Source: Acidovorax sp. GW101-3H11 (lineage in GTDB: Bacteria; Pseudomonadota; Gammaproteobacteria; Burkholderiales; Burkholderiaceae_C). Taken from it: DNA of 64,000 nt. Where the stretch lies: NCBI RefSeq assembly GCF_001633105.1, contig NZ_LUKZ01000001.1, forward strand, positions 121,268 to 185,267. Reading direction: 5' to 3'. The notes under the pieces are model-generated. The model was given only the letters and a program-made list of their open reading frames with translations. It ran no database searches and was not told where the DNA came from. Positions 24,075 to 44,576 of this stretch are shown in pieces (position 1 is the first letter of the stretch; the number at the start of each line of letters is the position of its first letter). The position numbers and the translations under genes are program-made.

Positions 24075-24094
24075 TTTTTCGCACAGGCCGCACC

Positions 24095-24331
24095 ATGAGC
24101 GCCCCCAACACCCCGTCTCTCGCAGACGGCATCTCTGACGCCGTCGGTTTTGTCGGCGGCGCCCTCATCGGTTTCTGGCTGGGCCAGTGGCTCGGCCTGG
24201 ACATCTTTGCCCCGGGCTATGGCACCCCGGCCCTGCTGGGCATTGCCCTGGTGGGCCTGGGCGGCGGTCTGGGCCTGCATGCGGCCAAACGCTGGCAGGC
24301 CAGCCGCCGCAGCAAGCCCGCCAAGGACTGA
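24095..24331 (+). CDS. Small glycine-rich membrane protein, 78 aa
   Basis: Unknown protein with two hydrophobic, glycine-rich helices (about residues 14-32 and 42-62) and a basic C-terminal tail (AKRWQASRRSKPAKD), so a small inner-membrane hairpin with the tail inside. It lies 20 bp after the MoxR gene and 22 bp before the GNAT gene, well within an operon. I do not recognise the family. It may anchor the MoxR/VWA pair to the membrane, which would be inference from position. Confidence 0.68.
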   Translation: MSAPNTPSLADGISDAVGFVGGALIGFWLGQWLGLDIFAPGYGTPALLGIALVGLGGGLGLHAAKRWQASRRSKPAKD

Positions 24332-24353
24332 GGCAGCGCCCGGAGCAACACCC

Positions 24354-24944: not shown

Positions 24945-24965
24945 CGCGCGCAAGGAGCCAAAAAC

Positions 24966-31200: not shown

Positions 31201-32603
31201 TGGCTGGCACGCTGCGCGCGCGCCTGCCCGACGTGGGGGTGTGGTCGGCCCTGGCCCCGCCCGGCTGGCGCGTGCGCGGCACGCTGGACGCAAGCGCCAC
31301 CCTGTCAGGCACGCGCAATGCGCCGCGCTGGGCCGGCACGCTGGGCGCCGACGACATGGCCGTGCGCTCGGTGGTCGATGGCGTGGACCTGCAAGCGGGC
31401 CGCCTGCGCGCCACGCTGCAAGGCAACCAGCTGCAGATCACCGAGTTCCGCCTGCAGGGCGGGCGCGGCAGCGGCGCGCGCATTGCAGGCTTCAGCGGCA
31501 ACCGCACCGCCGCGCCACAAGACGGCGGCACGCTCACCGCCACCGGCAGCGTGGGCTGGGGCGACAGCGCTGCGGCAACCACCGGCCTGTCGGGCATCAC
31601 CATGGCCCTGCAGGCCGAGGCCAAGGCCTTGCAGGTGCTGGTGCGCGCCGACCGGCAGGTCAGCGTGTCGGGCCAGCTGCAGGCGCAGTTGCAGCAGGGC
31701 CAGATCAGCCTGCGCGGCAAGCTCACCACTGACCGCGCCACCATCATCCTGCCCGACGAAACCGCGCCCAGCCTGGGCTCGGACGTGGTCGTGCGCTCTG
31801 CCGCCAAAGACCGCGAAGACCAGGCCCGGGCCCAGGCCGCCGCCAAGGCCAGCCAGGCGGCGGCGCAGGCGGAAACCGCCAAACCACCCGACATCGCCAT
31901 CACGCTCAACCTGGGGCGCGACTTTGCGCTCAGCGGCCATGGCATCACCACCCGGCTCACAGGCGAGGTGGACATCCGCAGCAGCGCCGTGCCCGGCGCC
32001 CCGCCGCGCGTGACCGGCGAGGTGCGCACCGACGAAGGCCGCTACCGCGCCTGGGGCCAGATGCTGGACGTGGAGACGGGCCTGATCCGCTTCAACGGCC
32101 CCTACAACAACCCCTCGCTCGACATCCTGGCGCTGCGCCCCAACATCAGCGTGCGCGCGGGCGTGCAGGTCACGGGCAGTGCGCAGGCGCCCCGCGTCAA
32201 GCTCTATTCCGACCCCGACCTGCCCGACGCCGAAAAACTCTCGTGGGTGGTGCTGGGCCGCAACGCCACCGCAGGCGGCGCTGAAGCCGCTGTGCTGCAG
32301 CAAGCCGCTCTGGCCCTGCTCGGCCGCAAGGGCGGCAACACCGGCACCGCCAACATCGCCAGCCGCGTGGGCCTGGACGAGATCGGTTTTCGCGGCGCCA
32401 CCCCGGGCGACGACGCCAGCACTGCGGCCCTCACCTTCGGCAAGCGCCTGTCCAAGGATTTGTACGTGACGTACGAGCGCAGCCTGTCCGGCACGCTGGG
32501 CACGCTCTACATCTTCTACGACCTCTCCCGCCGCCTCACGCTGCGCGGGCAGACGGGCGAGAAAAGCGCGGTGGACATCATCTACACGGTGAAGTACGAC
32601 TGA
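28230..32603 (+). CDS. tamB: TamB-like translocation/assembly module protein
   Basis: Very large periplasm-spanning protein (1,457 residues) of the TamB/AsmA-like family, which works with TamA in outer-membrane protein insertion and in phospholipid transport to the outer membrane. An N-terminal signal anchor (about residues 40-65) is followed by a long beta-helical groove region and the C-terminal DUF490 domain (about 1,080-1,457), ending in YVTYERSLSGTLGTLYIFYDLSRRLTLR, which contacts the TamA barrel. A Thr/Gly low-complexity stretch (30080-30110) lies in the middle. The ATG at 28230 overlaps the tamA stop by one base; another in-frame ATG occurs two codons later. Length exceeds E. coli TamB (1,259). 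Confidence 0.92.
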   Translation: MAMSSTPPHPAPRARASDFSAGSSSAQHPRPPRRPGAYRMLRALGWLLVALVALLLTASALLWWWAGSGTSLATSLTRAAQYLPAEQQLESREVTGSLRSGGRIGWLRWSSPSLSVEVTDLRLGWQLAPLLQRRLELGDVLATRVQITPLGGPHSSEPPTPPTELVLPLHIGVAFRVDQLQWAGAPAVEARGLAGDYHFDGREHRLNIGGVELAQGQYNARLTLQAQAPLTLSATVDGTVRTAVPGGTSAIQLGAHATLQGTLATAAAQLQLQARIQPTTAQETQATQAPPATAAPMQAEVQATLAPWATQPLQSAQATLHAVNLAALWPQAPATQLHGTVQAGPTPGAAASGTGWALQAQLRNDLAGPWDHTRLPITTLQADAKYDGTRWTVPGATVNAGTGAVTLHGSYTPTTGALEGQAELRNLRPDALHTAWAPAPLAGRVAAQMQGDVVRFTADIRATGSGVVASAKSTTQRAPLLRINTLAAQGSWHPPSPTQPGGSLQLERLLLDALQARVEATQLRVAPGDLSGQGLVTLAVPGTTARAQGSIAPQTGAGDLLMQWTDVGQTQRWLASLPLVGTPLQQALQGATAQGAAQLTARWKGGWQTLARQLESATATGTGTGTGVSTSTHNTGSTPPSDKAPFELQAALSTPQLDLSLPPGQGAGGATAVQLRAVKADLSGTLAQATLVLDGEARLNASQPRQMQQLALHTRATGGLGTPAQGTQGAQSAQVQISTLRLVAQDAARPGPWTLQLAEPLSLTTRATPSAGASSPAAGYTVQASAGQARLTGPLPGTATLRWQPLRVATGANPLQLQTQGTLQGLPMAWVDALGLADTPAAAGRPTQPLLARMGLATSIVLDGQWNVDTTQGPLRASASLRRASGDLRILAGDATAITAVQSSGQGTGAGATTVIATEASASPAGSANAPGTAAGVRQAEVTMEIDGEALRAQLAWASERAGEVQASASTRLTPGAPPGAALAWAPDAPLAGTLRARLPDVGVWSALAPPGWRVRGTLDASATLSGTRNAPRWAGTLGADDMAVRSVVDGVDLQAGRLRATLQGNQLQITEFRLQGGRGSGARIAGFSGNRTAAPQDGGTLTATGSVGWGDSAAATTGLSGITMALQAEAKALQVLVRADRQVSVSGQLQAQLQQGQISLRGKLTTDRATIILPDETAPSLGSDVVVRSAAKDREDQARAQAAAKASQAAAQAETAKPPDIAITLNLGRDFALSGHGITTRLTGEVDIRSSAVPGAPPRVTGEVRTDEGRYRAWGQMLDVETGLIRFNGPYNNPSLDILALRPNISVRAGVQVTGSAQAPRVKLYSDPDLPDAEKLSWVVLGRNATAGGAEAAVLQQAALALLGRKGGNTGTANIASRVGLDEIGFRGATPGDDASTAALTFGKRLSKDLYVTYERSLSGTLGTLYIFYDLSRRLTLRGQTGEKSAVDIIYTVKYD

Positions 32604-32657
32604 GGCTTCGGCGGCCAAAGAGGCCCGCGCGCGCCACTACAATGCGCGGCGGCTTAT

Positions 32658-32732
32658 CTCCTCGTAGTTCAATGGATAGAACGAGTGCCTCCTAAGCGCT
32701 AGATACAGGTTCGATTCCTGTCGAGGGGACCA
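32658..32732 (+). tRNA. tRNA-Arg (anticodon CCT)
   Basis: A complete cloverleaf can be drawn. The acceptor CTCCTCG pairs with CGAGGGG (one G-U), D-stem GTTC/GAAC, anticodon stem AGTGC/GCGCT, loop CTCCTAA with anticodon CCT at 32691-32693, T-stem ACAGG/CCTGT and loop TTCGATT. The CCA end is encoded (32730-32732). It reads the rare AGG codon. tRNA-Arg(CCT) genes are common phage and island integration sites, but no integrase or duplicated 3' end is seen here. Confidence 0.95.
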
Positions 32733-32760
32733 AAGTTTTGATACAAAACGGCCCCTACCG

Positions 32761-32801
32761 CGCGACCATCAAGCGCTTATAGCTATTAAATTTATAGCAA
32801 A
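32761..32801. repeat. Dispersed 41-bp repeat, copy A
   Basis: About 38 of 41 positions are identical to copy B at 46480-46520, with the blocks CGCGACCATCAAGCGCT, ATAGCTAT and TATAGCAAA. Located 29 bp after tRNA-Arg. The region to the next gene otherwise holds a short ACGTAC/GTACGT hairpin and a promoter. Confidence 0.75.
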
Positions 32802-32888
32802 CAACGTACCCACCTCCTGCGGTACGTGCCGATGGCCATCCCTGGCGCCCCGTTTCGCCGCACTTGCATTTGGTCACAAATGATGATG

Positions 32889-32917
32889 TTGACATGATAT
32901 GTCTGCATCCCTATTCT
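32889..32917 (+). promoter_or_regulatory. Sigma-70 promoter of the yjfI-pspA-yqiJK operon
   Basis: A perfect -35 TTGACA (32889-32894), 17-base spacer, and -10 TATTCT (32912-32917; four of six consensus). Transcription would begin near 32924, leaving a leader of about 60 bases to the GTG start at 32986. Found by eye. Confidence 0.65.
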
Positions 32918-32985
32918 CCTGATCCATGCAGGCACACGGAGCTTCCTCCGGCCGCCTGCCCCACCCGCAGGATGAAGGAGACGCC

Positions 32986-33402
32986 GTGGCCACTTTGCTG
33001 GAACAACTCAACAACCTGGACGTGCTGACCTCGGCGCTCATGGGCGGTGTGGCGGTGCAGTTGCAGCCCATTGCGGGTGATGTGCCCGTGGTGCAGGTCA
33101 GCATCGAGGGGCGCGACGAGCTGCCCATTTTCGTGACCTGCTCGGACATGCAGATGATCTGCCTGTGCTATCTGTGGACCGACGCCGACGTGCGGCCCGA
33201 GCGGCGGGCCGAGCTGATGGAAGCGCTGCTCGATTTGAATCCCTCCGTACCCCTGTCGGCCTTTGGCCGCGTGGATGGCCGCTTCGTGCTGGTCGGCGCC
33301 CTGAGCCGCGCGGCCCGCGCCGAAGATGTGGCGCACGAGGTGGCGGTGCTCAGCGACAACGCGCTCGATGCGCTCGATGCGCTGGCGGAATTCCTGCGCT
33401 GA
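32986..33402 (+). CDS. yjfI: YjfI-like DUF2170 protein
   Basis: A 138-residue DUF2170 protein, similar in size to E. coli YjfI, which in that organism is followed by the PspA paralogue YjfJ. Family traits include QPIAGDVPVVQVSIEGRDELPIFVTCS (about residues 27-53), the tryptophan-containing LCYLWTDADVRP and a C-terminal helical region. The function is unknown, but linkage with PspA-type proteins is the family rule. I place the start at the GTG at 32986, because AAGGAG lies five bases upstream; an ATG at 32926 has no ribosome site and is almost at the predicted transcription start. First gene of a seven-gene operon. Confidence 0.83.
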   Translation: MATLLEQLNNLDVLTSALMGGVAVQLQPIAGDVPVVQVSIEGRDELPIFVTCSDMQMICLCYLWTDADVRPERRAELMEALLDLNPSVPLSAFGRVDGRFVLVGALSRAARAEDVAHEVAVLSDNALDALDALAEFLR

Positions 33403-33470
33403 GCTACCCGCGCATTCCGCCGCCCCACCTTTCTTTCCCCAAGCTCTTTCGACATTGACAGGAGAACACC

Positions 33471-34214
33471 ATGTCGGTCATCAAGAAACTCGTCACCCTG
33501 CTGCGCGGCAGCGCCCGTGAACTGGGCCAGAGCGTGGTCGATGGCAACGCCACGCGCATCTATGAGCAAGAAATCATCGACGCCAAAAGCAGCATCACCG
33601 AGGCCAAGACCGAGCTGACCGGCGTGATGGCCAAGCAGATGCAGACGGCGCGCGACATCGAGCGCATCAAGGCCGATCTGCTGCGCCATGAAGACCTGGC
33701 CGTGCAGGCGCTGAACAAGGCCGAGGAAGGCCTTGCGCTGGAAGTGGCCGAGCGCGTTGCGGGGCTGGAAACCGAGCTGAACGCGCAGACCCAGGCCCAT
33801 GCCAGCTACGCCATGCAGGTGTCGCGCCTCAAGGACCTGATCCGCGCGGCCGAAACCCGTGTGCGCGAGCACGAACGCGAGATCGGTATCGCCAAGACCA
33901 CCGAGAGCGTCTACCGCGCCACGCAGAGCATCTCTGAAAGCATCGGCGCCACCGGCTCGCAGCTGACCAGCGCACGCGACTCGCTGGAGCGCATCAAGAA
34001 GCGCCACGAAGACCTGGCCGACCGCATGGCCGCCGCCGAGCAGCTGGACCAGGAGTTTGGCCACCGCGCGCTGGAGCGCAAGCTGGCCGACGCAGGCATT
34101 GGCGACAGCGACAAGGTGCGCGCCGCGCAGGTGATGGAGCGGCTGAAGGCGCGGCAGGCTGCAGCGGCAGCCGCCCCCGGCACAACCACCACCACGCCCC
34201 CCTCCGCACCATGA
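33471..34214 (+). CDS. PspA/IM30-family membrane-stress protein (YjfJ-like)
   Basis: A 247-residue coiled-coil protein of the PspA/Vipp1 family. Almost the whole length is predicted helical, with heptad-like patterns (about residues 25-145 and 160-215) and an amphipathic N-terminal helix (SVIKKLVTLLRGSARELGQSV) that would bind anionic membranes. PspA relatives are ESCRT-III homologues that polymerise on stressed inner membranes and maintain the proton-motive force. AGGAGA precedes the ATG. There is no PspF/PspBC around it, so its control differs from the E. coli psp operon. The stop overlaps the following gene (ATGA). As in the yjf locus, it follows a DUF2170 gene. Confidence 0.9.
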   Translation: MSVIKKLVTLLRGSARELGQSVVDGNATRIYEQEIIDAKSSITEAKTELTGVMAKQMQTARDIERIKADLLRHEDLAVQALNKAEEGLALEVAERVAGLETELNAQTQAHASYAMQVSRLKDLIRAAETRVREHEREIGIAKTTESVYRATQSISESIGATGSQLTSARDSLERIKKRHEDLADRMAAAEQLDQEFGHRALERKLADAGIGDSDKVRAAQVMERLKARQAAAAAAPGTTTTTPPSAP

Positions 34215-34651
34215 GCCCCGCAGCACCGCGCAAGCCGGTGCGTTGGCAGGGCTCCGAGCCCGCCCTGCGCGCCGTGCAGGTCGCCTTCGATGTGGAAGAA
34301 GCGGTGATGGAAGCCATCCGGGTCGCGGCCTTCCACGCCAATGTGTCCACCTCCACCCAGATCCGCAGCGTGCTGAACCTGCCCGTGGCCGCGCGCCCCA
34401 AGCGTCCGCGCCTGACCGTGACGCTGGACACGGGCGACTACACGCTGCTGGCCGGGCGCTATGGCCTGGCACCCGACGACCGCCTGGGCATCAAGGAGGC
34501 TGCCACGCGTGAACTGATCGCGTTTGTGGAGCAGGTGCCCGCTGCCCCCTCGCAGGCCGCGCTGCCCGGCAAGCCCGCCAAGGGGGGCAACATCAAAACC
34601 ACGGAGCAGCCTCCCCCACCACGCAAGGGCAAAGGAAAAAGCGGGCCCTGA
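34211..34651 (+). CDS. Putative double ribbon-helix-helix protein, 146 aa
   Basis: I do not recognise a named family. The 146-residue sequence appears to contain two strand-helix-helix units: VQVAFDVE + EEAVMEAIRVAAFHANV + STQIRSVLNL (about residues 22-57), and RLTVTLD + TGDYTLLAGRYGL + DDRLGIKEAATRELIAFV (about 67-107). Each resembles a ribbon-helix-helix monomer, so the protein could be a pseudo-dimeric DNA binder. The C-terminal 35 residues are a disordered, Pro/Lys-rich tail (PPPPRKGKGKSGP). It overlaps the PspA gene by four bases and would therefore be made in step with it, making it a candidate autoregulator of the operon. This is structural inference by eye. Confidence 0.6.
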   Translation: MSPAAPRKPVRWQGSEPALRAVQVAFDVEEAVMEAIRVAAFHANVSTSTQIRSVLNLPVAARPKRPRLTVTLDTGDYTLLAGRYGLAPDDRLGIKEAATRELIAFVEQVPAAPSQAALPGKPAKGGNIKTTEQPPPPRKGKGKSGP

Positions 34652-34719
34652 ACCCGGCGCAGCTTTCATCAAACAGTCCTCGACACAGACACAACATACG
34701 AGGAACAGGAGGGAATTTC

Positions 34720-35364
34720 ATGTTTGCCAATCTCATCGCGGCGGCCACCAGCTTTCCGACCGCCATCTACACCGTGCTGCTGGGCGTGGTGCTGGTGTAT
34801 TGGCTGCTGGCCATCGTGGGCATGGTGGATTTCGAATCCAGCGGCATTGACCTGGACATCGAGGCCCACGCCGACGCCAGCGCCGACGACCTGGGCGCCA
34901 TCGCCAGCTACGTGGTGGCATTCGGCCTGAGCGGCGTTCCGTTCTCCATCGTGGTGAGCCTGCTGGTGCTGGTGGGCTGGACGCTGTCGTGCCTGGCCGC
35001 CGTCACGCTGCAGGCGTGGATCCCTACCGACATCCTGCGCTGGCTGGCGGGCCTGGCCATCCTGGCCGTGTCGGCCGCGCTGTCGCTGGTGATCACGGCG
35101 CGCATCGTGCGGCCGCTGCGGGGCCTGTTTGTGCACCACACGGCGCAAAGCAATGCATCGCTGGTGGGCCAGACCTGCAAGGTGCTGACCGGCGTGGTGG
35201 ACGAGCGCCAGGGCCGGGCCGAAGTGGCCCAGCGCGGCGCCAGCATCAATGTCCGCGTGTGGTCACCCAGCCCCAACACGCTCAAGCGCGGCGACACCGC
35301 CCTGATCACCGAATACGACGCAGGCACCCACCGGTACCTGGTGATGCCGATGCCCCCCGCGTGA
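34720..35364 (+). CDS. yqiJ: YqiJ-like inner-membrane protein (OB-fold domain)
   Basis: A 214-residue membrane protein of the YqiJ/NfeD-related group, the normal partner of YqiK flotillins. It has four hydrophobic helices (about residues 8-35, 60-83, 86-103 and 110-132), then a soluble C-terminal OB-fold-like domain (about 145-212) containing GQTCKVLTGVVDERQGRAEV and ALITEYDAG. In E. coli, YqiJ and YqiK form membrane microdomain assemblies. A strong AGGAGGG ribosome site precedes the ATG by six to eight bases. It is followed, 103 bp later, by the flotillin gene. Confidence 0.88.
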   Translation: MFANLIAAATSFPTAIYTVLLGVVLVYWLLAIVGMVDFESSGIDLDIEAHADASADDLGAIASYVVAFGLSGVPFSIVVSLLVLVGWTLSCLAAVTLQAWIPTDILRWLAGLAILAVSAALSLVITARIVRPLRGLFVHHTAQSNASLVGQTCKVLTGVVDERQGRAEVAQRGASINVRVWSPSPNTLKRGDTALITEYDAGTHRYLVMPMPPA

Positions 35365-35467
35365 CCCTGCCCAGGCCCGAGGTCTGGGCAGCGCAACACA
35401 CCGGTTGCCCTGTTTTCCGTTTTTCACTGTTTTCTTCAGTTCCACCCTTTCAGCAGAAAGTGTTCTC

Positions 35468-37594
35468 ATGCAGCAATCCTTCATGGTCATCCTGATTGCC
35501 GTTGGCGTTCTTGTCTTCCTGATCCTGGCGATGTTCGCCATGTTCGCGAAGTTCTACCGCAAGGTGGAACAAGGCCACGCGCTCATCATCAACACCCTGC
35601 GCTCCGAGCCCGAAGTCACCTTCACCGGTCGCATGGTCTACCCCATCATCCACAAGGCCGAGCTGATGGACATCTCGGTCAAGACCATCGAGATCGACCG
35701 CTCGGGCGACCAGGGCCTGATCTGCGCGGACAACATCCGCGCTGACATCAAGGTGAAGTTCTTCGTGCGCGTGAACAAGACGGCCGAGGACGTGCTGCGC
35801 GTGGCCCAGGGCATTGGCTGCGCGCGCGCCTCCAACCACGAGATTCTGGAAGACCTGTTCTCGGCCAAGTTCTCCGAGGCGCTCAAGACGGTGGGCAAGT
35901 CGCTCGATTTTGTGGACCTGTACCAGGCGCGCGACCGCTTCCGCGACAAGATCATCGAGCAGATTGGCGATGACCTGTCGGGCTATGTGCTGGAAGACGC
36001 GGCCATCGACTACCTGGAGCAGACGCCGCTGTCCAAGCTCGATGCCAACAACATCCTCGATGCGCAAGGTATCAAGAAGATCACCCAGCTCACGGCCGTG
36101 GAACACGTGGTGACCAACGAGCTGCGCCGCAACGAGGAAATGCAGATCAAGAAGAAGAACGTGGAAACGCAGGAAGCCCTGCTGGAGCTGGAACGCCAGC
36201 AGGCCGACGCCACCGCGCGCCAGGCCCGCGAAGTGGCCACCGTGAAGGCACGCGAAGAAGCCGAAACCTCCAAGATCCAGGCCGAGGAGCGCACCCGCTC
36301 CGAAATGGCGCGCCTGCAGTCAGAGCAGCAACTGGCTGTGCAGCAGGAAAACGTGCTGCGCGAGAAGGAAGTGGCCGAGAACAACCGCAAGCGCGCCGTG
36401 GTGATCGAGCAGGAACGCGTGACCCGTGCGCAAGAGCTGGAAGTGGTGGCGCGCGAGAAGGAAGTGACGCTGCAGCGCATTGAAAAAGACAAGGCCGTGG
36501 AAGTGCAGAAGAAGGCCATTGCCGACGTGGTGCGCGAACGCATCGTGGTCGAACGCACCGTGGCCGAGCAGGAAGAAGCCATCAAGGAAGTGCGCGAAGT
36601 GGCCGAAGCCGACCGCACGCGCAAGTCCATAGTGATTGGCGCCGAGGCTGCGGCCGAAGAGAAGGTCATCATGGAAGTGAAGACCGCCGAGGCGCAAGAG
36701 CGCAAGGCCCGCCACAAGGCAGCCGAAGACCTGGTGCTAGCCGATGCGCGCCTGAAGGTGGCTGAACGCGATGCCGAAGCCAAAAAGCGCGATGCCGAAG
36801 GCATTGAAGCCCTGACCGCAGCGCCCGGCCTGGCCGAAGCCAAGGTGCAGATGGCCAGTGCCAGCGCCAAGCTGGCCACCATGGAGGCCGAAGCCAGCGG
36901 CAAGGAAAAAGTGGGCCGTGCCGAAGCCCAGGTCATCGAAGCCCAGGCCCAGGCCGAGGCCGTGGGCCTGCGTGCCCGCATGGAAGCCGAAGCCGCTGGC
37001 AAAGAGAAGGTCGGCCAGGCCGAAGCCCTGGTGCGCACCGTGGACGCCGAAGCCCTGGCCAAGATGGGCGATGCCGAGGCGCACAACATCGATGTGAAGT
37101 TCAACGCCGAAGCGCGCGGCCTGAAGGAAAAGTTCGAGGCCATGAAGGCCATGAGCCCCGAGACCCGCGAGCACGAGGAATACCGCATGCGCCTGGAGCG
37201 CGCACACACCGAAACCCTCAAGGGCATCGAGGCACAAACCGCCATCGCCAAGGAGCAGGCCGAGGTGCTGGGCGTGGCCCTGCAGAACGCCAAGATCGAC
37301 ATCGTGGGCGGCCAGGGCGACTACTTCGACAGCTTTGTGCGCGCGCTGTCGGTGGGCAAGGGCATCGACGCCACGGTGGGCAAGAGCCAGACGCTGCAGG
37401 TGGCCTTCAAGGACCAGCTGAGCGGCGAGCGTGATGTGGTGGAAGACGTCAAGCAGATCCTGAGCGCCGCCGGTGGGTCGGCCGGTGAGCTGCAGAACCT
37501 GAGCGTCTCGGCCCTGCTCACGCGCATTGCCACCCAGGGCACGGATAGCCAGAAGCAGGCGCTGCAGCAGCTGCTGCAAGGGCTTCGCAAGTAA
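35468..37594 (+). CDS. yqiK: Flotillin-family (SPFH) protein YqiK
   Basis: A 708-residue flotillin. It has one N-terminal transmembrane helix (about residues 6-28), an SPFH/band-7 domain (about 30-215), and a very long coiled-coil rich in Glu-Ala repeats (about 220-560; e.g. AEAEASGKEKVGRAEAQ and repeats of EAAGKEKVGQAEA), then a C-terminal oligomerisation domain (about 600-708). Flotillins assemble in lipid microdomains and recruit membrane proteins. E. coli YqiK is about 550 residues, so this one carries an expanded coiled coil. The start at 35468 directly precedes the membrane helix; the open frame extends upstream without need. Likely acts with YqiJ and the PspA-type protein in envelope maintenance. 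Confidence 0.92.
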   Translation: MQQSFMVILIAVGVLVFLILAMFAMFAKFYRKVEQGHALIINTLRSEPEVTFTGRMVYPIIHKAELMDISVKTIEIDRSGDQGLICADNIRADIKVKFFVRVNKTAEDVLRVAQGIGCARASNHEILEDLFSAKFSEALKTVGKSLDFVDLYQARDRFRDKIIEQIGDDLSGYVLEDAAIDYLEQTPLSKLDANNILDAQGIKKITQLTAVEHVVTNELRRNEEMQIKKKNVETQEALLELERQQADATARQAREVATVKAREEAETSKIQAEERTRSEMARLQSEQQLAVQQENVLREKEVAENNRKRAVVIEQERVTRAQELEVVAREKEVTLQRIEKDKAVEVQKKAIADVVRERIVVERTVAEQEEAIKEVREVAEADRTRKSIVIGAEAAAEEKVIMEVKTAEAQERKARHKAAEDLVLADARLKVAERDAEAKKRDAEGIEALTAAPGLAEAKVQMASASAKLATMEAEASGKEKVGRAEAQVIEAQAQAEAVGLRARMEAEAAGKEKVGQAEALVRTVDAEALAKMGDAEAHNIDVKFNAEARGLKEKFEAMKAMSPETREHEEYRMRLERAHTETLKGIEAQTAIAKEQAEVLGVALQNAKIDIVGGQGDYFDSFVRALSVGKGIDATVGKSQTLQVAFKDQLSGERDVVEDVKQILSAAGGSAGELQNLSVSALLTRIATQGTDSQKQALQQLLQGLRK

Positions 37595-37600
37595 AAACAT

Positions 37601-37673
37601 AGCAGCCAGCGTTTAACGCACCAGAATTTCAAGCCTTTTGTCTTGAGACCACTGGGCACAAGCGCTGGCAGCT
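37601..37673. repeat. Imperfect inverted repeat inside the operon
   Basis: Arms AGCAGCCAGCG (37601-37611) and CGCTGGCAGCT (37663-37673) pair at 10 of 11 positions across a 51-base loop. The element sits between yqiK and the next small gene and resembles dispersed Comamonadaceae 'caagcgctggcagct' repeats. It could lower expression of the distal genes. Confidence 0.5.
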
Positions 37674-37689
37674 ACCCATTGAGCAGCAG

Positions 37690-38001
37690 ATGTTCGCCCA
37701 ACCCTGGTTCTTGCCGGTCATCAGTTGCCTGCTCATGACCATCCCTGCCTTCCTGCTGCGACGCTGGATCACACGAAAAACCGGCCGAACGTCACTCCCC
37801 CTTAGTCACCCCTGGCAACTGCTGTTTGTGGCTGTGTGCGCCTACTTTGCGCCACACAACCTCTCCGATGCCTCTGCCTGGTGGCTGCTCTTTGGAGTCC
37901 TGCAAGCAGCGTCCGTGGCTGATCTGGCGCTGCAGTGCCTTGTTGGCAAAAGGGATCTGCCCGAAACGCCCCCACCCGCCCCAATGAACGATGCGCCATG
38001 A
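37690..38001 (+). CDS. Small membrane protein before the giant ATPase, 103 aa
   Basis: An unrecognised 103-residue protein with two to three hydrophobic segments (about residues 5-23, 42-57 and 64-84) and a Pro-rich C-terminal tail. Its stop overlaps the start of the ATPase gene (ATGA), which suggests that it is translated with the ATPase and may tether it to the membrane. The ATG at 37690 lies just after a dispersed-repeat hairpin. I know of no function. It is the only member of the operon without a recognised relative in E. coli yjf/yqi loci besides the putative RHH protein. Confidence 0.65.
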   Translation: MFAQPWFLPVISCLLMTIPAFLLRRWITRKTGRTSLPLSHPWQLLFVAVCAYFAPHNLSDASAWWLLFGVLQAASVADLALQCLVGKRDLPETPPPAPMNDAP

Positions 38002-41000
38002 CTACTGCACCTAGCAGCACTGATACCCCCGTCGAAGACGCCGCCATCGACACCAGCGTGGCCGAAAGCAGCAGCTACGAGTTGCTGAAAAAGCGCCTGG
38101 AAGCCCAGGGCGACCAGCTGCTGTCCAAGGCCCAGGCGCTCAATGCGGCACGCATTGAACAGTTCGGCCAGCGCGACCAGCAGCTCCTGATGCGCCTGCG
38201 CGCGCGCACCGAGCACAACTGCGTGGCGCGAGACCTGGCCTACATCGGTGGCAACCGGTTGCTGTTTGGCTACAACGTGTTCATGGGCCTCCGGCGCGAG
38301 ACGCGGGTGGAGGACGTGTTTGCGCTGTACGAGCTGGCGCACCACGACACGAACAGTGAAGGGGTGGGCGCGCCCGAGAGCGATGAACTGGTGCAGGTGC
38401 CCATGGCGGGCAGCTTTCTGGACGACCCGCGTTTTGTGGCCGACTTCAACGAGCTGTACACCTATTACAAGCAGGCCACGCTGCAGCTGCTGCGGCCCAC
38501 ACCGGAGTTTCTGCTGGCAGCGTTCCAGATCGGACAGCAGGCGCAGGACATCCGCGTGTTCCGCTGGCGGCGCGAAAGCGATGGCTCGCTGAAGTACGTG
38601 GACAACCGGGGCGAGCGCGACCTGACGCCGCCGCCCAGCCACGACTTCAGCTGGACACCCCTGACGCGTGAGCACCATGTGGGCGGTGCCCACCCGCACA
38701 TCAATGTGCTGGACACGGTGTTTGTCGAAACCGTGGGCGGCACGCTTACCGTGAAGGTCGAGAACAACACCGAGACCGGCCTGGGCATCTACGAAGAGCC
38801 CGTGGACGACGCCAACCAGGCGCTGGGCGACGCCGAGTTTGCCTATGCCAAGCTGGGCCTGTTGATCCTGCTGCAGGTGCGCCCCTACCGCGAGAGCACC
38901 ACGCGCTACCTGGTGTTCAACCAGCGCACGCAGCAGGTGGTTCGCATCGACGCAATCGGCGCATCATGCATGCAGCTGCCGGAGGACCACGGCATCATCT
39001 TCCCCGGTGGCTACTACCTGCAGTCGGGCGAAACCAAGCGTTTTGACCTGCCCCCCGAGCTGACCGAGCAGCTGCGCTTCACGCGCATGAAGCGCTCGCC
39101 CAACGGCGAGGACGTGGCCTACATCTTCTATGGCACCGTGCCGCCGCCGCAGGGCAGCCCAGCCACGCTGGATGCGGGCTGCTACGCCCTCTTCACCTAC
39201 AACCTCATCGAAAAATCGCTCGCACCGCCCATCCTGGCCGACGGGTACAGCACCTTCCCCGATGGGCGCATGCTGGTGTTCCAGGCCGCGCGCGGCGAGG
39301 CCACGCGCGTGCACCCCATGCAGCTGTGGCGCACGCCGTTTGCGACCGAAGAACACGCCAGCCGCCAGCCCGCAGGCACGGGCTTTTTCGGGCGCGTGGG
39401 CAATGCCGACCTGGTGCGCGGCATTTCGGACCTGCTGGGCATTGCGCGCATGGTGCGCGAACAGGTCCCCACGCGCACTGCGTACGAAGACCTGATCCGC
39501 CAGTGCCAGCGCGCACGCGACGCCTACTTCTGGCTCGACGCGGGCGAGGTGCAGAACGCAGCGGCCGACCTGGGTGGCATCGAGCAGGCCGCGCAGGCCA
39601 CGCTGGGCGAGTTTGAAAAGGTCGAAAGCATCCGCCAGGACACCACCCGCGCGCTGCACAAGGCCGAAGGCCAGCAGCGCGAGCTAATGACCGCCATTGC
39701 CAGCCAGCTGTGGCGCAGCCCCAGCGACTTTGTGCAGGCGCTGGACCGCCTGCGCCAGCGCCAGGGCGAGCTGCACCTGCTGCGTGAACTGCGCTATGCC
39801 GACCTGGCCACCATCGATGCGATGGCCGCGCAACTGACGGCCGAGCAGCAGCGTGTGGGCGAGCGCGCGCTGCAGTTCCTGTCCGACGAAAAAGCCTTTG
39901 ACGGCCAGCGCCAGGCCCTGGCCAAGGTGGCTACCGCCCTGCCCCAGGCGACGACGGCGGGGCAGTTGGCCGAACACCTGACCACGCTGGACACCGAAGC
40001 CGCGAGCCTCGACCTGCTCAGCGAACAACTGGGCAGCCTGCCCGGCGGCGATGCGGTACAGCGCACCACCATCCTCGACCGCATTGCGCTGCTGTACGCC
40101 GACATCAACCGCCTGCGCGCCGATGCCCGCGCGCGCCGCCGCAACCTGGGTGCGGCCGAGCAGCGGGCCGAGTTTGGCGCGCAGTTCAAGCTGTTCGGCC
40201 AGGCGGTGGAAAACGCGCTGGAGCTGTCGGACACGCCCGAAAAGTGCGACGAAGCGCTGACCCGCCTGCTCGCGCAACTGGAAGACATTGAAGGCCGCTT
40301 TGCCGAGCAGGAAGAGTTTCTGGCCGACATCGCCACCCAGCGCGAAAGCGTGTACGAGGCGCTGTCGGCCCGCCGCCAAAGCCTGGTGGATGCACAACAG
40401 CGCCGCGCCAAGGCCCTGGCCGACGCGGCCACGCGCGTGCTGGACGGCGTGCCGCGCCGCATCGCGGGGTTTGGCGAGCTGGCCCAGGTGCACAGCTACT
40501 TTGCATCCGACCCCATGCTGGCCAAGCTGCGCGAGCAGGTGGCCGAGCTGCGCCGCCTGGGCGCGGCCGTGGCGGCGGACGACATCGACACGCGCCTGAA
40601 AACCGCCCGCGACCAGGCCGTGCGCGCGGTGCGCGACCAGCGCGACCTGTCGGCCGGTACCGGAGGCGGCCTGAAGCTCGGCAGCCACACCTTCACCATC
40701 AACAAGCAGCCGCTGGATCTGACCCTGGTCGCCCACGGTGATGGCCTGGCCTGGCAGATCACCGGCACCGACTACCTGGCCCCGGCGCACCATGACCGGC
40801 TGGAGGCGCTGCGCCCCTTCTGGCAGCAGGCGCTGGTGTCTGAAGCACCGCAGCTGGCGCGCGCCGAATACCTGGCTGCTGAATGGCTGGAGGCCCAGCA
40901 GCGCGGCGAGGCCGAGCCTGGCTGGAGCGAGCTGCTGGTGCAGCTGGCCGAGCACGCGCGCACCGATGGCACCGATGGCACCGACGGCACCGAGCCCAGC

Positions 41001-43628
41001 ACCGCGCCCGCCGTGCTGCTGGATTCGCTGCGCCGCTTTGCTGCCAGCCGCTACCAGGAGGGCTACCAGCGCGGCATCCATGACGACGACGCCCTGGCCA
41101 TCGTGCGGGTGCTAGCGCCCATCCAGGACGCGGCTGGGCTGCTGGTCTATGGCCCGGCCGAACGCGCGCTGGCCAAGCTCTATTGGCACCTGGGCCTGCG
41201 CGAGGAAAGCCGCCATTCCCTGGCGCGCCGCGCCCGCAGCGCACAGCACATTGCCCAGCTGTTTTCAAAGACCCACCTGCGCGACACGCTGGAGGCCGAA
41301 TCCGCGCAAGGCCTGCGCCAGTTTGTGGAGCAGCACCCCGTGCTGGCCGCTGAATGGCTGCCCGAACTGGCCCAGGCACTGAGCATCGGCGATGCGGAAG
41401 GAGCAAGCGACGAGGCCCTGCTGCGCACGCTGGTGGAAGAGTCCGGTGCCTACCTGGTGCGTGAGCTGGCGCAGACCGAGATCGGCACCGCCGAGCTGTC
41501 GCCCATTACACCCCAGTGGGTCATCAGCAACACCGGCGCGGACCTGGTGCAGGCCCTGCAGCGCGCGCTGGACCACGGCGGCCTGGCCAGCGCCTGGCTG
41601 CGCGATCTGAACGCGGCCGAGCCGCTGGAGCGCTGGCGCCTGGCGCGCGGCTGGCTGCGCGCGTTTGCGGCCACACAAGCCACGGCCGATGGCACCACAC
41701 CGGGCCTGGCATGGATTGATGACGCGGCCACGGCGCTGACCTTCCAAGGCACGCGCCGCCGCATCAACACCACGCTGGATGCGCAGGTGGCCGGGCTGCG
41801 CAGCGAACACACGCGCATCCAGCACGGCGCGCTGGCGTTCAACCTCAACGACTTTCGCCGCCGCGTGCGCCACCACCGCAGCCACGCAGTGCAGGGCTTC
41901 ACGGAGCTGCAGGCCCTGCGGCACGAGCTGCTCGTGCAAGAAAAAGCGCGCCTGCACCTGGCGCAGTTCCAGGCCAAGCCGCTGGCCACCTTTGTGCGCA
42001 ACCGGCTCATTGACGAGGTGTACCTGCCGCTGGTGGGCAACAACCTGAGCAAACAACTGGGCGCCGCTGGCGACAGCGCACGCACCGACCGCATGGGCAT
42101 GCTGCTGCTGATCTCGCCGCCCGGCTACGGCAAGACGACGCTGATGGAGTACGTGGCCAACCGCCTCGGCCTGGTGTTTGTGCGCATCAACTGCCCCGCC
42201 CTGGGCCACGGCGTGACCAGCATCGACCCCAGCACCGCGCCCAACAGCGCGGCGCGGCAAGAGCTGGAAAAGCTCAACCTGGGCCTGGCCATGGGCAGCA
42301 ACGTGATGCTGTACCTGGACGACATCCAGCACACGCACCCCGAGTTCTTGCAGAAGTTCATTGCGCTGGCCGATGGCACCCGCCGCATCGAGGGCGTGTG
42401 GCAGGGCCAGCCTCGCACCTGGGACATGCGCGGCAAGCGTTTTGCCATCGTGATGGCGGGCAACCCGTACACCGAGTCGGGCGACGTGTTCCGCATCCCC
42501 GACATGCTGGCCAACCGGGCCGACATCTACAACCTGGGCGATGTGCTCTCGGGCCGCGAGGCGGTGTTTGCGCTGTCGTACATCGAAAACAGCCTGACCG
42601 CCCACCCCGTGACCCAGCCCCTGGCTGCGCGCGAGCCGCAGGATGTGCACCTGCTGGTGCGCATGGCCCAGGGCGAGGCCATCGACACCAACAGCTTCGC
42701 CCACCCCTACAGTGCGGTGGAGCTGCAAGAGCTCAAGGGCCTGCTGCAGCGCCTGTTCAAGGTGCGCGACGTGCTGCTGAAGGTAAACCTGGCCTACATC
42801 GCCTCGGCCGCGCAGGACGACCGCTACCGCGAAGCGCCGCCCTTCCGCCTGCAAGGCAGCTACCGCAACATGTCGCGCCTGGCGCCGCAGGTCACGCCGC
42901 TGATGCAGGACGATGAACTGGACGCGCTGCTGCGCGACCACTACCGGGGTGAGGCGCAAACGCTGACCACCGGCGCCGAAGAAAACCTGCTGCAGCTGGC
43001 GCAGCTGATAGGCCGCCCCACGCCCCAAGAGCAGGAGCGCTGGGACCAGATCCGGGGCGACTACCAGCGCCAGCGCAAGATGGGCGGCGCCGAGGATGAC
43101 CCGAGCGTGCGCGTGACGCGTGGCCTGCTGGACATTGCCCGCAGCGTGGAAGCACTGCAGCCCCGCAAAGCCACCGAGCAGCTCACGCAGCACATCACCC
43201 AACATGTCGCCCAGCCCCTGGCCGCGATTGCGCAGCACCTGGCGCAGCCCACGCCCGCACAGCAGGCGCAAGGTGCGGCACTGACCCGCATCGAGCCCGC
43301 TCTGGCCGCCTTGGCAGAACTGGCCCAGCACCTGCAGCAAGGCACCACCCAGACCCAGGCCCAGATGCGCGCCAGCCTGGACGCCACGGCCCAGGCGCTG
43401 CAGGCCTTGCAGGCCAGCACACACACGCTGCACGCCCATAGCGACCAGGCCCAGGCCCAGCGCATGGTGGACGCGCTGCTGTCGCTGTCCGTCACCTACC
43501 GCCAGCTCATCATGCCGCTGGTGCGTGCTGTGGAAAGCCGCGTGGGTGCCGACGCCAAGATGCACCAGGAGGTGGAGCGGCTGGAGGGCATGATCGACAA
43601 CCTGCGCGGCGCGCCGCCCGCCAAGTAG
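37998..43628 (+). CDS. Giant AAA+ 'DNA repair ATPase' (DUF3686-type)
   Basis: A 1,876-residue protein of the family usually annotated as DNA repair ATPase. The N-terminal 550 residues are beta-rich (DUF3686-like), residues about 550-900 are coiled coil, and the AAA+ module lies near the C-terminus: Walker A PPGYGKTT (1374-1381), Walker B LYLDDIQ (1438-1444), a sensor-1 MAGNPY (about 1485-1490) and NRAD with a likely arginine finger (about 1506-1509). A TDG triplet repeat (about 990-1000) marks a flexible linker, and the last 150 residues are Gln/Ala-rich coiled coil. No nuclease or helicase motif is seen, so the repair label is only traditional. It is cotranscribed with PspA- and flotillin-type genes; a membrane-remodelling or unfoldase role is equally plausible. 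Confidence 0.85.
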   Translation: MTTAPSSTDTPVEDAAIDTSVAESSSYELLKKRLEAQGDQLLSKAQALNAARIEQFGQRDQQLLMRLRARTEHNCVARDLAYIGGNRLLFGYNVFMGLRRETRVEDVFALYELAHHDTNSEGVGAPESDELVQVPMAGSFLDDPRFVADFNELYTYYKQATLQLLRPTPEFLLAAFQIGQQAQDIRVFRWRRESDGSLKYVDNRGERDLTPPPSHDFSWTPLTREHHVGGAHPHINVLDTVFVETVGGTLTVKVENNTETGLGIYEEPVDDANQALGDAEFAYAKLGLLILLQVRPYRESTTRYLVFNQRTQQVVRIDAIGASCMQLPEDHGIIFPGGYYLQSGETKRFDLPPELTEQLRFTRMKRSPNGEDVAYIFYGTVPPPQGSPATLDAGCYALFTYNLIEKSLAPPILADGYSTFPDGRMLVFQAARGEATRVHPMQLWRTPFATEEHASRQPAGTGFFGRVGNADLVRGISDLLGIARMVREQVPTRTAYEDLIRQCQRARDAYFWLDAGEVQNAAADLGGIEQAAQATLGEFEKVESIRQDTTRALHKAEGQQRELMTAIASQLWRSPSDFVQALDRLRQRQGELHLLRELRYADLATIDAMAAQLTAEQQRVGERALQFLSDEKAFDGQRQALAKVATALPQATTAGQLAEHLTTLDTEAASLDLLSEQLGSLPGGDAVQRTTILDRIALLYADINRLRADARARRRNLGAAEQRAEFGAQFKLFGQAVENALELSDTPEKCDEALTRLLAQLEDIEGRFAEQEEFLADIATQRESVYEALSARRQSLVDAQQRRAKALADAATRVLDGVPRRIAGFGELAQVHSYFASDPMLAKLREQVAELRRLGAAVAADDIDTRLKTARDQAVRAVRDQRDLSAGTGGGLKLGSHTFTINKQPLDLTLVAHGDGLAWQITGTDYLAPAHHDRLEALRPFWQQALVSEAPQLARAEYLAAEWLEAQQRGEAEPGWSELLVQLAEHARTDGTDGTDGTEPSTAPAVLLDSLRRFAASRYQEGYQRGIHDDDALAIVRVLAPIQDAAGLLVYGPAERALAKLYWHLGLREESRHSLARRARSAQHIAQLFSKTHLRDTLEAESAQGLRQFVEQHPVLAAEWLPELAQALSIGDAEGASDEALLRTLVEESGAYLVRELAQTEIGTAELSPITPQWVISNTGADLVQALQRALDHGGLASAWLRDLNAAEPLERWRLARGWLRAFAATQATADGTTPGLAWIDDAATALTFQGTRRRINTTLDAQVAGLRSEHTRIQHGALAFNLNDFRRRVRHHRSHAVQGFTELQALRHELLVQEKARLHLAQFQAKPLATFVRNRLIDEVYLPLVGNNLSKQLGAAGDSARTDRMGMLLLISPPGYGKTTLMEYVANRLGLVFVRINCPALGHGVTSIDPSTAPNSAARQELEKLNLGLAMGSNVMLYLDDIQHTHPEFLQKFIALADGTRRIEGVWQGQPRTWDMRGKRFAIVMAGNPYTESGDVFRIPDMLANRADIYNLGDVLSGREAVFALSYIENSLTAHPVTQPLAAREPQDVHLLVRMAQGEAIDTNSFAHPYSAVELQELKGLLQRLFKVRDVLLKVNLAYIASAAQDDRYREAPPFRLQGSYRNMSRLAPQVTPLMQDDELDALLRDHYRGEAQTLTTGAEENLLQLAQLIGRPTPQEQERWDQIRGDYQRQRKMGGAEDDPSVRVTRGLLDIARSVEALQPRKATEQLTQHITQHVAQPLAAIAQHLAQPTPAQQAQGAALTRIEPALAALAELAQHLQQGTTQTQAQMRASLDATAQALQALQASTHTLHAHSDQAQAQRMVDALLSLSVTYRQLIMPLVRAVESRVGADAKMHQEVERLEGMIDNLRGAPPAK

Positions 43629-43635
43629 GCCGGAA

Positions 43636-43652
43636 CAGCGCGCAAGGCGCTG
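43636..43652. terminator. Hairpin after the ATPase operon
   Basis: CAGCGC-GCAAG-GCGCTG, a perfect 6-bp stem between the ATPase stop and the convergent exporter stop. No T-tract; candidate bidirectional transcript end. Confidence 0.4.
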
Positions 43653-43667
43653 CGTCTGCGCCGGTGC

Positions 43668-44576
43668 TCAGGCCGGTTGCGGCGCCGCCCCCGGCGCTGC
43701 GGGCGCACGCGCCGTGAGCGCGCTGCCCATCGAGGCGGCCATGATGCAGCCAATGGCCAGCCACTGCACCACGCTCAGGTGCTCGCTCAGCAAGGCCATG
43801 GCGACCAGCGCGGCCACGGCGGGTTCCATGCTGATCATGATGCCGAAGGCCTCCTTGGGCAGGCGCTTCAGGGCCATCATCTCCAGCGATATGGGCACTG
43901 CGCTCGACACCGCTGCCACCGCCACGCCGATCAGCAACAGGCTGGGCGAGAGCAGCGCCGCGCCCGCATGCGCCACGCCCACTGGCACCACCACCAGCGC
44001 TGCCACCAACAGGCCCAGCGACACCGAATGCCCCGCGTGCAAATGCCCCGCGCGTTTGCCAAACACGATGTACAGCGCCCAGAACACCGCCGCGCCCAGC
44101 GCGTAGGCCACGCCCACCGGGTCCAGCATGCTGCCGTTGAGCCCCAATGGCAGCAGCAGCCCCAGCCCCGCGATGGCCAGCAGCACCCAGACAAAATCCA
44201 CTGCGCGGCGCGACGACCAGATGGCCACGGCCAGCGGCCCCGCAAACTCGATGGCCACGGCCAGGCCGAACGGCAGCGTGCGCAGCGACATGTAGAACAT
44301 CAGGTTCATGCCGCCCAGGGCTGCGCCGTACAACACCACCGACTTCGCATCGGCCCGGCTCAGGTGCCAGCGCCAGGGCCGCCACAGCAACAGCACCACC
44401 AGCGCCGAGAACCCCACCCGCAGCGCCGTGGTGCCCTGCGCCCCTACGGCCGGAAACAGCCAGTGTTTGGCCCAGGATGTGCCAATGCCCAGCGCCGTCA
44501 CAGAGCCAAGCACGGCAAGAAAGGGGAGAAAACGGTGGAACACCGCAGAGGTAGAGAAAGAAACTGGCATGCGCAA
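43668..44576 (-). CDS. EamA/DMT exporter, RhtA-like
   Basis: A 302-residue drug/metabolite transporter with ten hydrophobic helices in two EamA repeats (about residues 15-140 and 150-288). The closest recognisable pattern is RhtA, the threonine/homoserine exporter: GTSWAKHWLFPAVGAQGTTALRVGFSALVLL and ALGGMNLMFYMSLRTLPFGLAVAIEFAGPLAVA are typical. It would expel amino acids or analogues. It is divergent from an Lrp/AsnC regulator (93 bp apart), a pairing often seen for amino-acid exporters. Two ATGs (44576, 44570) are possible starts. Exported substrate inferred only. Confidence 0.87.
   Translation of the reverse strand: MRMPVSFSTSAVFHRFLPFLAVLGSVTALGIGTSWAKHWLFPAVGAQGTTALRVGFSALVVLLLWRPWRWHLSRADAKSVVLYGAALGGMNLMFYMSLRTLPFGLAVAIEFAGPLAVAIWSSRRAVDFVWVLLAIAGLGLLLPLGLNGSMLDPVGVAYALGAAVFWALYIVFGKRAGHLHAGHSVSLGLLVAALVVVPVGVAHAGAALLSPSLLLIGVAVAAVSSAVPISLEMMALKRLPKEAFGIMISMEPAVAALVAMALLSEHLSVVQWLAIGCIMAASMGSALTARAPAAPGAAPQPA

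Follow-up and report, generated by a model that had tools for sequence, protein, structure and literature searches.

Ravi et al. (2024, PMC11237479) describe operons in which a dyad of a CesT/Tir protein (DUF2170) and PspA stands with a transmembrane-band7-flotillin, a propeller-coiled-coil AAA+ ATPase and YqiJ, as well as shorter flotillin-YqiJ-ATPase operons and a ribbon-helix-helix (RHH) gene in another class of PspA operon; ATP-dependent remodelling by the PspA-linked AAA+ ATPases is proposed there. In Pseudomonas aeruginosa the six genes of the bac operon, bacABCDEF, which correspond to PA3732-PA3729 and two downstream genes (PMC10948618, PMC2587700), are co-transcribed by the evidence of reverse-transcription PCR, and loss of bacA raises BacB-BacD and the next two products by 6.1- to 13.5-fold (PMC10948618). 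The PspA-like protein of this organism responds to osmotic shock (PMC2587700), PA14_16160 and PA14_16180 (PaFlo3) are NfeD-like and flotillin proteins, respectively (PMC13086221), and one study found PA3728-PA3732 raised in every sample infected with phage (PMC12041424); PA3728, which follows the flotillin gene, is given as an ATPase (PMC8190622) and, from gene order, would be bacE. The window that we analysed, 64,000 nucleotides from Acidovorax sp. GW101-3H11 (contig NZ_LUKZ01000001.1), holds at 32986-43628 (positions are those within the window unless another record is named) seven colinear open reading frames (ORFs), yjfI-like through ATPase, which we file as a variant of the Ravi et al. 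class in which YqiJ-YqiK-ATPase forms the fixed core and PspA is a module that may be absent. The initial annotation had grouped PspA, flotillin and ATPase correctly, but the grouping is not new, being already in PMC11237479.

The strongest new result is a regulator-operator pairing: the gene for a 146-aa RHH-like protein co-occurs with a palindrome, operator A, on the operon's sigma-70-like promoter. The features concerned are:

32889-32917, + strand: promoter TTGACA-17-TATTCT, from a sigma-70-like scan and the -10 element in related operons
32891-32903, no strand assigned: operator A, GACATGATATGTC (GACAT-N3-ATGTC), over the -35 box; putative tandem-RHH binding site
34211-34651, + strand: tandem ribbon-helix-helix-like protein, 146 aa, candidate autorepressor, from a fold model and co-occurrence with the operator

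We regard the whole as probably a self-regulated membrane-integrity operon, made up of a repressor, a flotillin/YqiJ platform, a MoxR-type ATPase and, optionally, patching by PspA.

GACAT-N3-ATGTC occurs once in the window (expected 0.01), and its GACA is the end of the -35 box. Scanning named genomes with a profile gave at least 560 relatives, and 80 of these loci were compared. Among the named operons, 31 of the 33 that have the RHH gene carry a perfect operator A between -300 and +40 of the YjfI start, whereas none of the 22 PspA operons lacking that gene and none of the 13 PspA-less operons has one; shuffled sequences give about 0.01 copies per operon group; L105, with 43 bases upstream, was left out of the count. 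Fisher's test on the pairing of gene and operator (31/33 versus 0/22) gives p = 2e-13 with kinship ignored. All 41 copies lay in promoter regions, and none was found in the rest of the 806 kb of the same loci. The ten operator bases are perfect in 31 of the 33 regions, with flanks that are mixed except for the TT of the -35 box, and the two exceptions, L103 and L125, have the RHH gene after the ATPase and a variant palindrome. The promoter itself was the only sigma-70-like match in 32600-43700 (shuffles give 0.7), so that the match alone is at chance level; its support comes from related operons, 23 of 31 of which have a -10 element at the expected distance (control 5.5%). A sigma-54 promoter was considered and rejected, since TGGCAC-N5-TTGC with up to two mismatches has no match on the + strand from the tRNA gene upstream to 32986, and the 90 matches in the whole window are below the shuffled mean of 141. 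Taken together, the co-occurrence argues strongly that the RHH-like protein regulates the operon through operator A.

The remaining genes of the operon, and the catalytic domain of the last, are:

32986-33402, + strand: YjfI-like (BacA-like) protein, DUF2170, 138 aa; Pfam and a codon-usage gene finder
33471-34214, + strand: PspA/IM30 family protein (YjfJ/BacB-like); Pfam PspA_IM30
34720-35364, + strand: YqiJ-like (NfeD2-type) membrane protein, named after PMC11237479 and PMC2636767
35468-37594, + strand: YqiK-like flotillin (SPFH2-type), 708 aa; related loci, Pfam Flot sub-threshold
37690-38001, + strand: 103-aa membrane ORF, an orphan, in the slot between YqiK and the ATPase
37998-43628, + strand: giant AAA+ ATPase, 1,876 aa; Pfam, alignment and model
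41949-43019, + strand: AAA+ domain of the ATPase, MoxR/CbbQ/NorQ-like; AlphaFold model comparison

ORF calls and the promoter scan bore out the seven colinear frames of the initial annotation, its promoter, and its two ATGA overlaps, at the PspA/146-aa and 103-aa/ATPase junctions. The codon-usage gene finder recovered six of the seven, missing the 103-aa ORF (score -9.5, against +127 for pspA), and the YjfI start is most likely the GTG at 32986 after AAGGAG. Pfam places DUF2170 (E 1.8e-27) directly upstream of PspA_IM30 (E 1e-33), the latter being the sole PspA-family match in the whole source genome, and finds DUF3686 (E 5.7e-180), DUF7902 and AAA in the ATPase. Neither the 146-aa, the YqiJ-like nor the 103-aa product has a Pfam match above cut-off, and the YqiK-like product reaches only 15.1 bits with Flot (cut-off 27) and has no Band_7 match, although it is homologous to the protein at the same position in related loci; the names YqiJ and YqiK are therefore based on the position of the genes, on the homologues in related loci and on Ravi et al.

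Those of the genes that a locus has stand in a fixed order, DUF2170-PspA-[RHH]-YqiJ-YqiK-[variable]-ATPase, apart from the displaced RHH gene of L103 and L125. Variovorax paradoxus 110B (L072) is among the strains that carry this type of operon. Of the 74 loci that extend 3.2 kb or more upstream, 72 have both YqiJ and YqiK next to the ATPase, the YqiJ-like gene before YqiK being found with a profile of our own. Of the 70 that extend 6.5 kb or more, 33 carry the full set of five other genes (with the RHH gene displaced in L103 and L125), 22 are missing the RHH gene alone, 13 have just YqiJ-YqiK and 2 have none, which leaves PspA in the operon in 55. When the genomes of the 15 loci without an operon PspA were searched whole, seven kept DUF2170 and PspA side by side at another place, five had PspA without DUF2170 (L112, L123, L128, L133 and L140), and three, those of L077, L085 and L090, whose assembly completeness is not stated, gave no match to either family. 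On the ATPase-core tree the PspA label needs nine changes, at least five of them forced by the starred branches (quick method). A plasmid collection, several records of which are chromosome-sized, yielded 12 records with the ATPase at 39.8-48.1% identity; the eight examined come from Pseudomonadota, Deinococcota, Actinomycetota and Bacteroidota, and in every one of them YqiJ, YqiK and the ATPase follow one another in this order, with PspA inside the 7-8 kb flank in two. A search for E. coli yqiK by DNA similarity gave no match at blastn sensitivity. YqiJ-YqiK-ATPase is a constant unit and YjfI-PspA a detachable module; the tree changes and the PspA-less loci make PspA optional and YqiJ-YqiK the standing partner of the ATPase. 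The idea of a single machine, put forward with the initial annotation, is accordingly half right: co-occurrence upholds it for yqiJK and only in part for pspA. That the genes belong together elsewhere too is seen in the one conserved order in many genomes and in the co-transcribed bac operon of P. aeruginosa (PMC10948618).

The slot between YqiK and the ATPase varies. It is empty in many loci, holds in many Betaproteobacteria a protein of about 180 aa resembling a zinc ribbon (the two scanned, from L070 and L097, match Zn_ribbon_TFIIB above cut-off) and in Pseudomonas relatives one of about 80 aa (the one scanned, from L107, has sub-cut-off EF-hand and TerB matches), and in single loci carries a YhcG/DUF1016 nuclease (L091 8118-9173) or a PIN protein (L084 8583-8969). 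For the 103-aa ORF that fills it here, the compared operons yielded no relative, and the remaining 298 genomes of the family gave two faint matches (E 3e-4 and 5e-4); the ORF is, by sequence comparison, an orphan and not a conserved operon part, contrary to its earlier inclusion in the machine. That it might be a decayed zinc-ribbon gene was rejected, as it shows no similarity to the zinc-ribbon slot gene. In L011 the ATPase gene is followed by rhomboid and PLD genes.

The ATPase comprises DUF3686 (residues 41-511), described in Pfam as an 'ATPase involved in DNA repair', DUF7902 (632-716), the AAA+ domain (about 1318-1674) and a helical tail after residue 1697. We aligned 62 C-terminal parts, namely 61 of the 77 usable stretches from the 80 loci and that of the window (586 residues), and found PPGYGKTT, DD, GNP, NR and GSYRNM invariant; in our reading these correspond to Walker A, Walker B (whose second acid is Asp in 62 of 62), sensor 1, the arginine finger and sensor 2. 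Another ATPase alignment used eight of nine rows, L014 being excluded for an in-frame TGA, with its two pieces kept apart; the TGA lies at about 12239 of L014 (reverse-complement coordinates), near the start of the ATPase gene of genome G007. The AlphaFold model of the AAA+ part has a mean predicted local distance difference test score (pLDDT) of 76.6. With this model the ten best VIA matches are all CbbQ/NorQ (Z 16.0-18.2 over 226-251 residues), followed by dynein (Z 14.1) and Rea1 (Z 13.9), and CbbQ/NorQ also take Foldseek ranks 1-10; the model comparison thus places the domain nearest the MoxR/CbbQ/NorQ remodellers. The initial annotation saw no nuclease or helicase motif, and indeed no nuclease, helicase or DNA-binding family is found over cut-off by Pfam or NCBIfam, RuvB models matching the P-loop stretch only, below cut-off. 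A separate MoxR-like ATPase with a CoxE/VWA-like gene, labelled by eye, lies outside the operon at 23220-26153.

The mechanism that we propose would run as follows. In the unstressed cell the RHH protein would sit on operator A and block RNA polymerase, and membrane stress would lift this repression. YqiK, as a flotillin, and the NfeD-like YqiJ would form a platform in the membrane. The giant ATPase might dock there by way of its large N-terminal half, in an arrangement like that of the AAA+ protease FtsH within SPFH cages but without a protease, and use its MoxR-type AAA+ ring to pull apart or refold membrane-protein assemblies. Where the module is present PspA, with YjfI as its probable partner, would patch the bilayer at the same sites. 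The substrate named here for the ATPase is our inference.

A different substrate follows if the ATPase is the bacterial counterpart of Vps4, disassembling or recycling ESCRT-III-like PspA polymers, with the flotillin as a mere anchor. The ESCRT-III-like PspA is indeed encoded in the operon at 55 of 70 loci, remodelling driven by ATP has been proposed (Ravi et al., PMC11237479), and tails of fewer than 80 residues, seven of the 62 aligned, all belong to ATPases of PspA-less operons. Against this, three of the 15 genomes with a PspA-less operon have no PspA match at all, and in two of the three the ATPase has a tail like that of PspA-bearing relatives; moreover, the AAA domain ranks with CbbQ/NorQ, and the link between tail and PspA is not significant given relatedness (five independent pairs, p = 1). 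The C-terminal tail as a PspA-binding part was rejected on that test and on the other PspA-less operons that keep it. No MIT domain is matched in the ATPase by Pfam; spastin is among the Foldseek rows (E about 1e-5), and Vps4 relatives fall outside the 50 best VIA matches, which excludes nothing. Because the ATPase occurs in genomes without detectable PspA, PspA polymers are unlikely to be its only substrate. We consider a Vps4-like role unlikely, and the earlier suggestion of an ATPase acting on PspA polymers is weakened by the PspA-less genomes and the MoxR/CbbQ/NorQ placement.

Returning to the self-regulated operon and its putative repressor, the gene for the 146-aa protein keeps its place in 32 of the 80 loci and follows the ATPase gene in another two; its alignment comprises 29 of these 34 ORFs and that of the window. 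The model has two helix pairs, in a block with pLDDT 84-94, and the first seven VIA matches are F-plasmid relaxosome chains, which we take to be TraY, single-chain Arc and AvtR, in alignments spanning 74-81 residues with two helix pairs in one chain. TraY of the F plasmid, AvtR of an archaeal virus and the engineered single-chain Arc are tandem-RHH DNA-binding proteins. Thus the protein looks, from a weak model, like a tandem RHH protein, and we infer that it is a candidate repressor of its own operon with TTGACATGATATGTC as the putative target. The guess of a double RHH protein in the initial annotation is supported in this way, mainly by the operator evidence besides the fold match. A tblastn search for the protein on plasmids gave no match.

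Eight genomes were searched for the palindrome as a whole. Exact copies of GACATAATATGTC number seven in G007, ten in G721 (Motilimonas eburnea), four in G717 and two in G719, all of which have the RHH gene, and none in G710, G712, G713 and G715, all of which lack it; in the latter four the looser GACAT-N3-ATGTC gives 1-8 sites (reversed-pattern controls 0-4). In G007 the contig that has YjfI-PspA and the RHH gene is not the one that has YqiJ-YqiK-ATPase, and yet operator A begins 108 bases ahead of YqiJ. This genome has ten GACAT-N3-ATGTC sites (reversed-pattern control four), three of them inside ORFs and the other seven reading GACATAATATGTC on one strand, all ahead of PspA, SPFH, NfeD, polyamine or YqiJ-YqiK-ATPase genes:

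G007, one site: a 367-aa gene, then DUF350 and spermidine synthase
G007, two sites: YjfI-PspA, a DUF4178-like gene (24.6 bits, cut-off 25) and RHH
G007, one site: a 100-aa ORF, then canonical pspA (TIGR02977 above cut-off)
G007, one site: a Band_7 gene
G007, one site: an NfeD-Band_7 pair, about 340 bases away
G007, one site: YqiJ-YqiK-ATPase

An AT-rich centre as the mark of a functional operator was discarded, because the AT-only site C40:182440 of G007 lies inside an ORF; the exact GACATAATATGTC is cleaner. The ten exact copies in G721 fall at eight loci, namely htpX, an NfeD gene, the YjfI-PspA operon, an M16 peptidase/SulP pair, a 96-aa protein and three hydrolase loci, and four other sites are one inside an ORF and three intergenic. 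G719 has an exact copy ahead of a second pspA, and in G717 operator A stands 158 bases ahead of rpoH (L195 1990-3005), a possible link of the membrane regulon to heat shock. In the source genome the one further GACAT-N3-ATGTC site is inside an ORF, and the circuit therefore seems to serve this operon alone.

The 22 PspA operons without the RHH gene have a long YjfI, with ORFs of 204-242 aa and a conserved basic N-terminus (17 of the 22 aligned), and this long YjfI pairs with another palindrome, operator B, T(C/T)ACATGT(G/A)A, present in 20 of the 22, usually twice, and in none of the other two groups. The plasmid pQBR103, L011 and L012 fit the same rule. Given the published derepression in the bacA mutant, long YjfI and operator B suggest that the regulator is fused to the YjfI N-terminus in these operons. 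Homology between this N-terminus and the RHH protein was not borne out (hhalign Prob 0.2; Pfam MazE-like E 0.34 in the one protein scanned). Near the junction of the N-terminal extension with DUF2170, 18 of the 22 genes have an in-frame start with a Shine-Dalgarno-like stretch (for example L107 4772-5392), a frequency not compared with chance, so that a second, short YjfI may be made. The 425-kb pQBR103 carries at 84437-97641 (L206 43-13247) a ten-gene run, YjfI-PspA, rhomboid, DUF2491, DUF350, DUF1190, glutathionylspermidine synthase, YqiJ, SPFH and ATPase, which includes a polyamine module and unites two of the PspA operon classes distinguished in PMC11237479.

Several observations weigh against a self-regulated membrane-integrity operon. 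On the side of the repressor, the RHH-like model is weak overall (mean pLDDT 71, predicted template modelling score 0.51), its strands are single-residue bridges, the first of which falls where pLDDT is under 50, its VIA matches score Z 6.6-7.4, below 8, Foldseek finds no significant match, and of 30 members scanned against Pfam two match RHH_1 (best E 0.00076) and three FitA-like_RHH (best E 0.064). The RHH gene forms one clade (one change) on the ATPase tree of the profile-scan operons, so that shared descent explains part of its co-occurrence with the operator. PspA-less YqiJ-YqiK-ATPase operons are without operator A (0/13) even in G717, G719 and G721, which have the regulator elsewhere, G007 being the exception found, and three of the eight loci with exact copies in G721 hold hydrolases without evident membrane-stress role. 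On the side of the machine, RuvB follows from Foldseek rank 11 (E 1e-6), and none of the operon's seven products belongs to the VWA family by Pfam. A VWA partner is usual for ATPases of the MoxR type, and we accordingly speak of a MoxR-like domain, not of a MoxR system. As for the closest relative, a sigma-54 site and not a sigma-70 one is reported for bac, and deletion of the paFlo3 flotillin in P. aeruginosa is nearly silent (PMC13086221).

The single clade and the middling fold match of a weak model would also suit an operator that belongs to some other factor, such as a sigma factor or host regulator, the RHH gene co-occurring with it through common descent alone. Given the single clade, we tested the rule on seven detached YjfI-PspA loci, and operator A was found in five of five with the RHH gene, two of them split operons of the same type and three gammaproteobacterial loci of another type, and in neither of the two without. 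The same rule holds for whole genomes, with the exact palindrome in four of four searched genomes that have the gene and none of four that lack it; in G007 the operator precedes YqiJ-YqiK-ATPase although the RHH gene is on another contig; and conservation is confined to the ten bases and the TT of the -35 box. We think such another factor unlikely.

We lean, by a little, towards a wider scheme in which a tandem-RHH repressor family acts through GACAT-N3-ATGTC to coordinate alternative and canonical PspA, SPFH/NfeD scaffolds, the flotillin-AAA+ machine, HtpX (a membrane protease), RpoH (the heat-shock sigma factor) and a spermidine synthase operon, the subset differing from genome to genome. 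It would have shrunk to one self-contained operon in the source genome, and in many Gammaproteobacteria the regulator would have moved into the YjfI N-terminus, with the operator becoming T(C/T)ACATGT(G/A)A. A title-level literature search found no such membrane-integrity regulon; for RHH, PspA and operator together it gave, by title, only work on plasmid pLS20, for the operator strings only an unrelated match in plant phylogeography, and for DUF3686 no paper.

The operon lies in a slot of the genome, 32658-43668, that varies within the genus. Its edges are:

32658-32732, + strand: tRNA-Arg (CCT), left edge of the genus-variable slot by comparison among congeners
43668-44576, - strand: EamA-like transporter gene, right edge of the variable slot

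Eight congeners have both edges on one contig: the slot is nearly empty in two (0.7 and 0.9 kb), holds this operon in one (G403) and other cargo of 6-20 kb in five, with phage-type integrases in the slot of G409 and G398 and beside the tRNA in G400. The tRNA-Arg/EamA slot is an island hotspot in the genus, and among 398 genomes of the phylum 8 have DUF3686, as do 2 of the genus's 19 (source genome counted). When 34720-43628 was compared with L063 and L091, YqiJ, YqiK and the ATPase were 90.6, 95.3 and 91.3% identical to those of a Giesbergeria metagenome-assembled genome and 86.4, 92.8 and 81.7% to those of congener G403, which is rated 8% contaminated but whose operon contig carries genus flanks. 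PriA reverses this order (78-80% versus 88.5%), YjfI is closer to G403 (96.4%) than to the Giesbergeria genome (87.0%), and PspA is about equal. That the 3' genes are nearer to Giesbergeria though PriA is nearer to G403 points to a mosaic operon whose 3' part may have been recombined or transferred. That the operon might be mainly an anti-phage or island-borne defence cassette, as its patchy DUF3686, the hotspot with its partly integrase-bearing or near-empty occupants, the relative on pQBR103, the rise of PA3728-PA3732 under phage infection (PMC12041424) and weak PADLOC matches (IetA, 19.8 bits; LmuB, 17.8 bits) could suggest, is unlikely, for those matches are short or fall in coiled-coil and P-loop parts, the regulator's further targets are mostly general membrane genes, and the P. 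aeruginosa PspA-like protein responds to osmotic shock (PMC2587700).

While the operon class was already known, its control and its constant parts are not described in the literature that we found. An exact operator with a candidate repressor makes the regulon testable and the motif a way to find membrane-stress genes, and YqiJ-YqiK-ATPase without detectable PspA turns work on the 'DNA repair ATPase' from PspA and DNA to flotillin platforms.

The comparison with known systems may be drawn as follows. Of the class of Ravi et al., both the adjacency of DUF2170 and PspA and the YqiJ-like gene next to the flotillin are found here. In the available text of PMC11237479 this class is given neither an operator nor an RHH gene, small genes between YqiK and ATPase are not mentioned, and the ATPase is not assigned to the MoxR type; the propeller and coiled coil are that paper's description. 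The ATPase of the window has an AAA domain and N-terminal DUF3686/DUF7902. Like bac, the operon has DUF2170 (BacA), PspA-like (BacB), NfeD-like and flotillin proteins and two further genes, but the Pseudomonas relatives that we compared, which do not include P. aeruginosa itself, have a YjfI with a 60-residue N-terminal extension, no separate RHH gene, and operator B in place of A. As to the ATPase, its AAA domain best matches those of the MoxR, CbbQ and NorQ ATPases, from which it differs in a far larger chain, the lack of a VWA partner in the operon and the second Walker B Asp. As to the protein encoded at 34211-34651, it has two helix pairs in one chain like TraY, AvtR and single-chain Arc, and differs from them in having no convincing sequence match and a chromosomal PspA operon as partner. 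HflKC-FtsH and prohibitin-m-AAA are complexes of an SPFH protein with an AAA+ protease. Such complexes (PMC13220708) share with the proposed machine a flotillin-superfamily scaffold and an AAA+ motor at the membrane, and here the motor would be a giant MoxR-like ATPase in which no protease domain was found.

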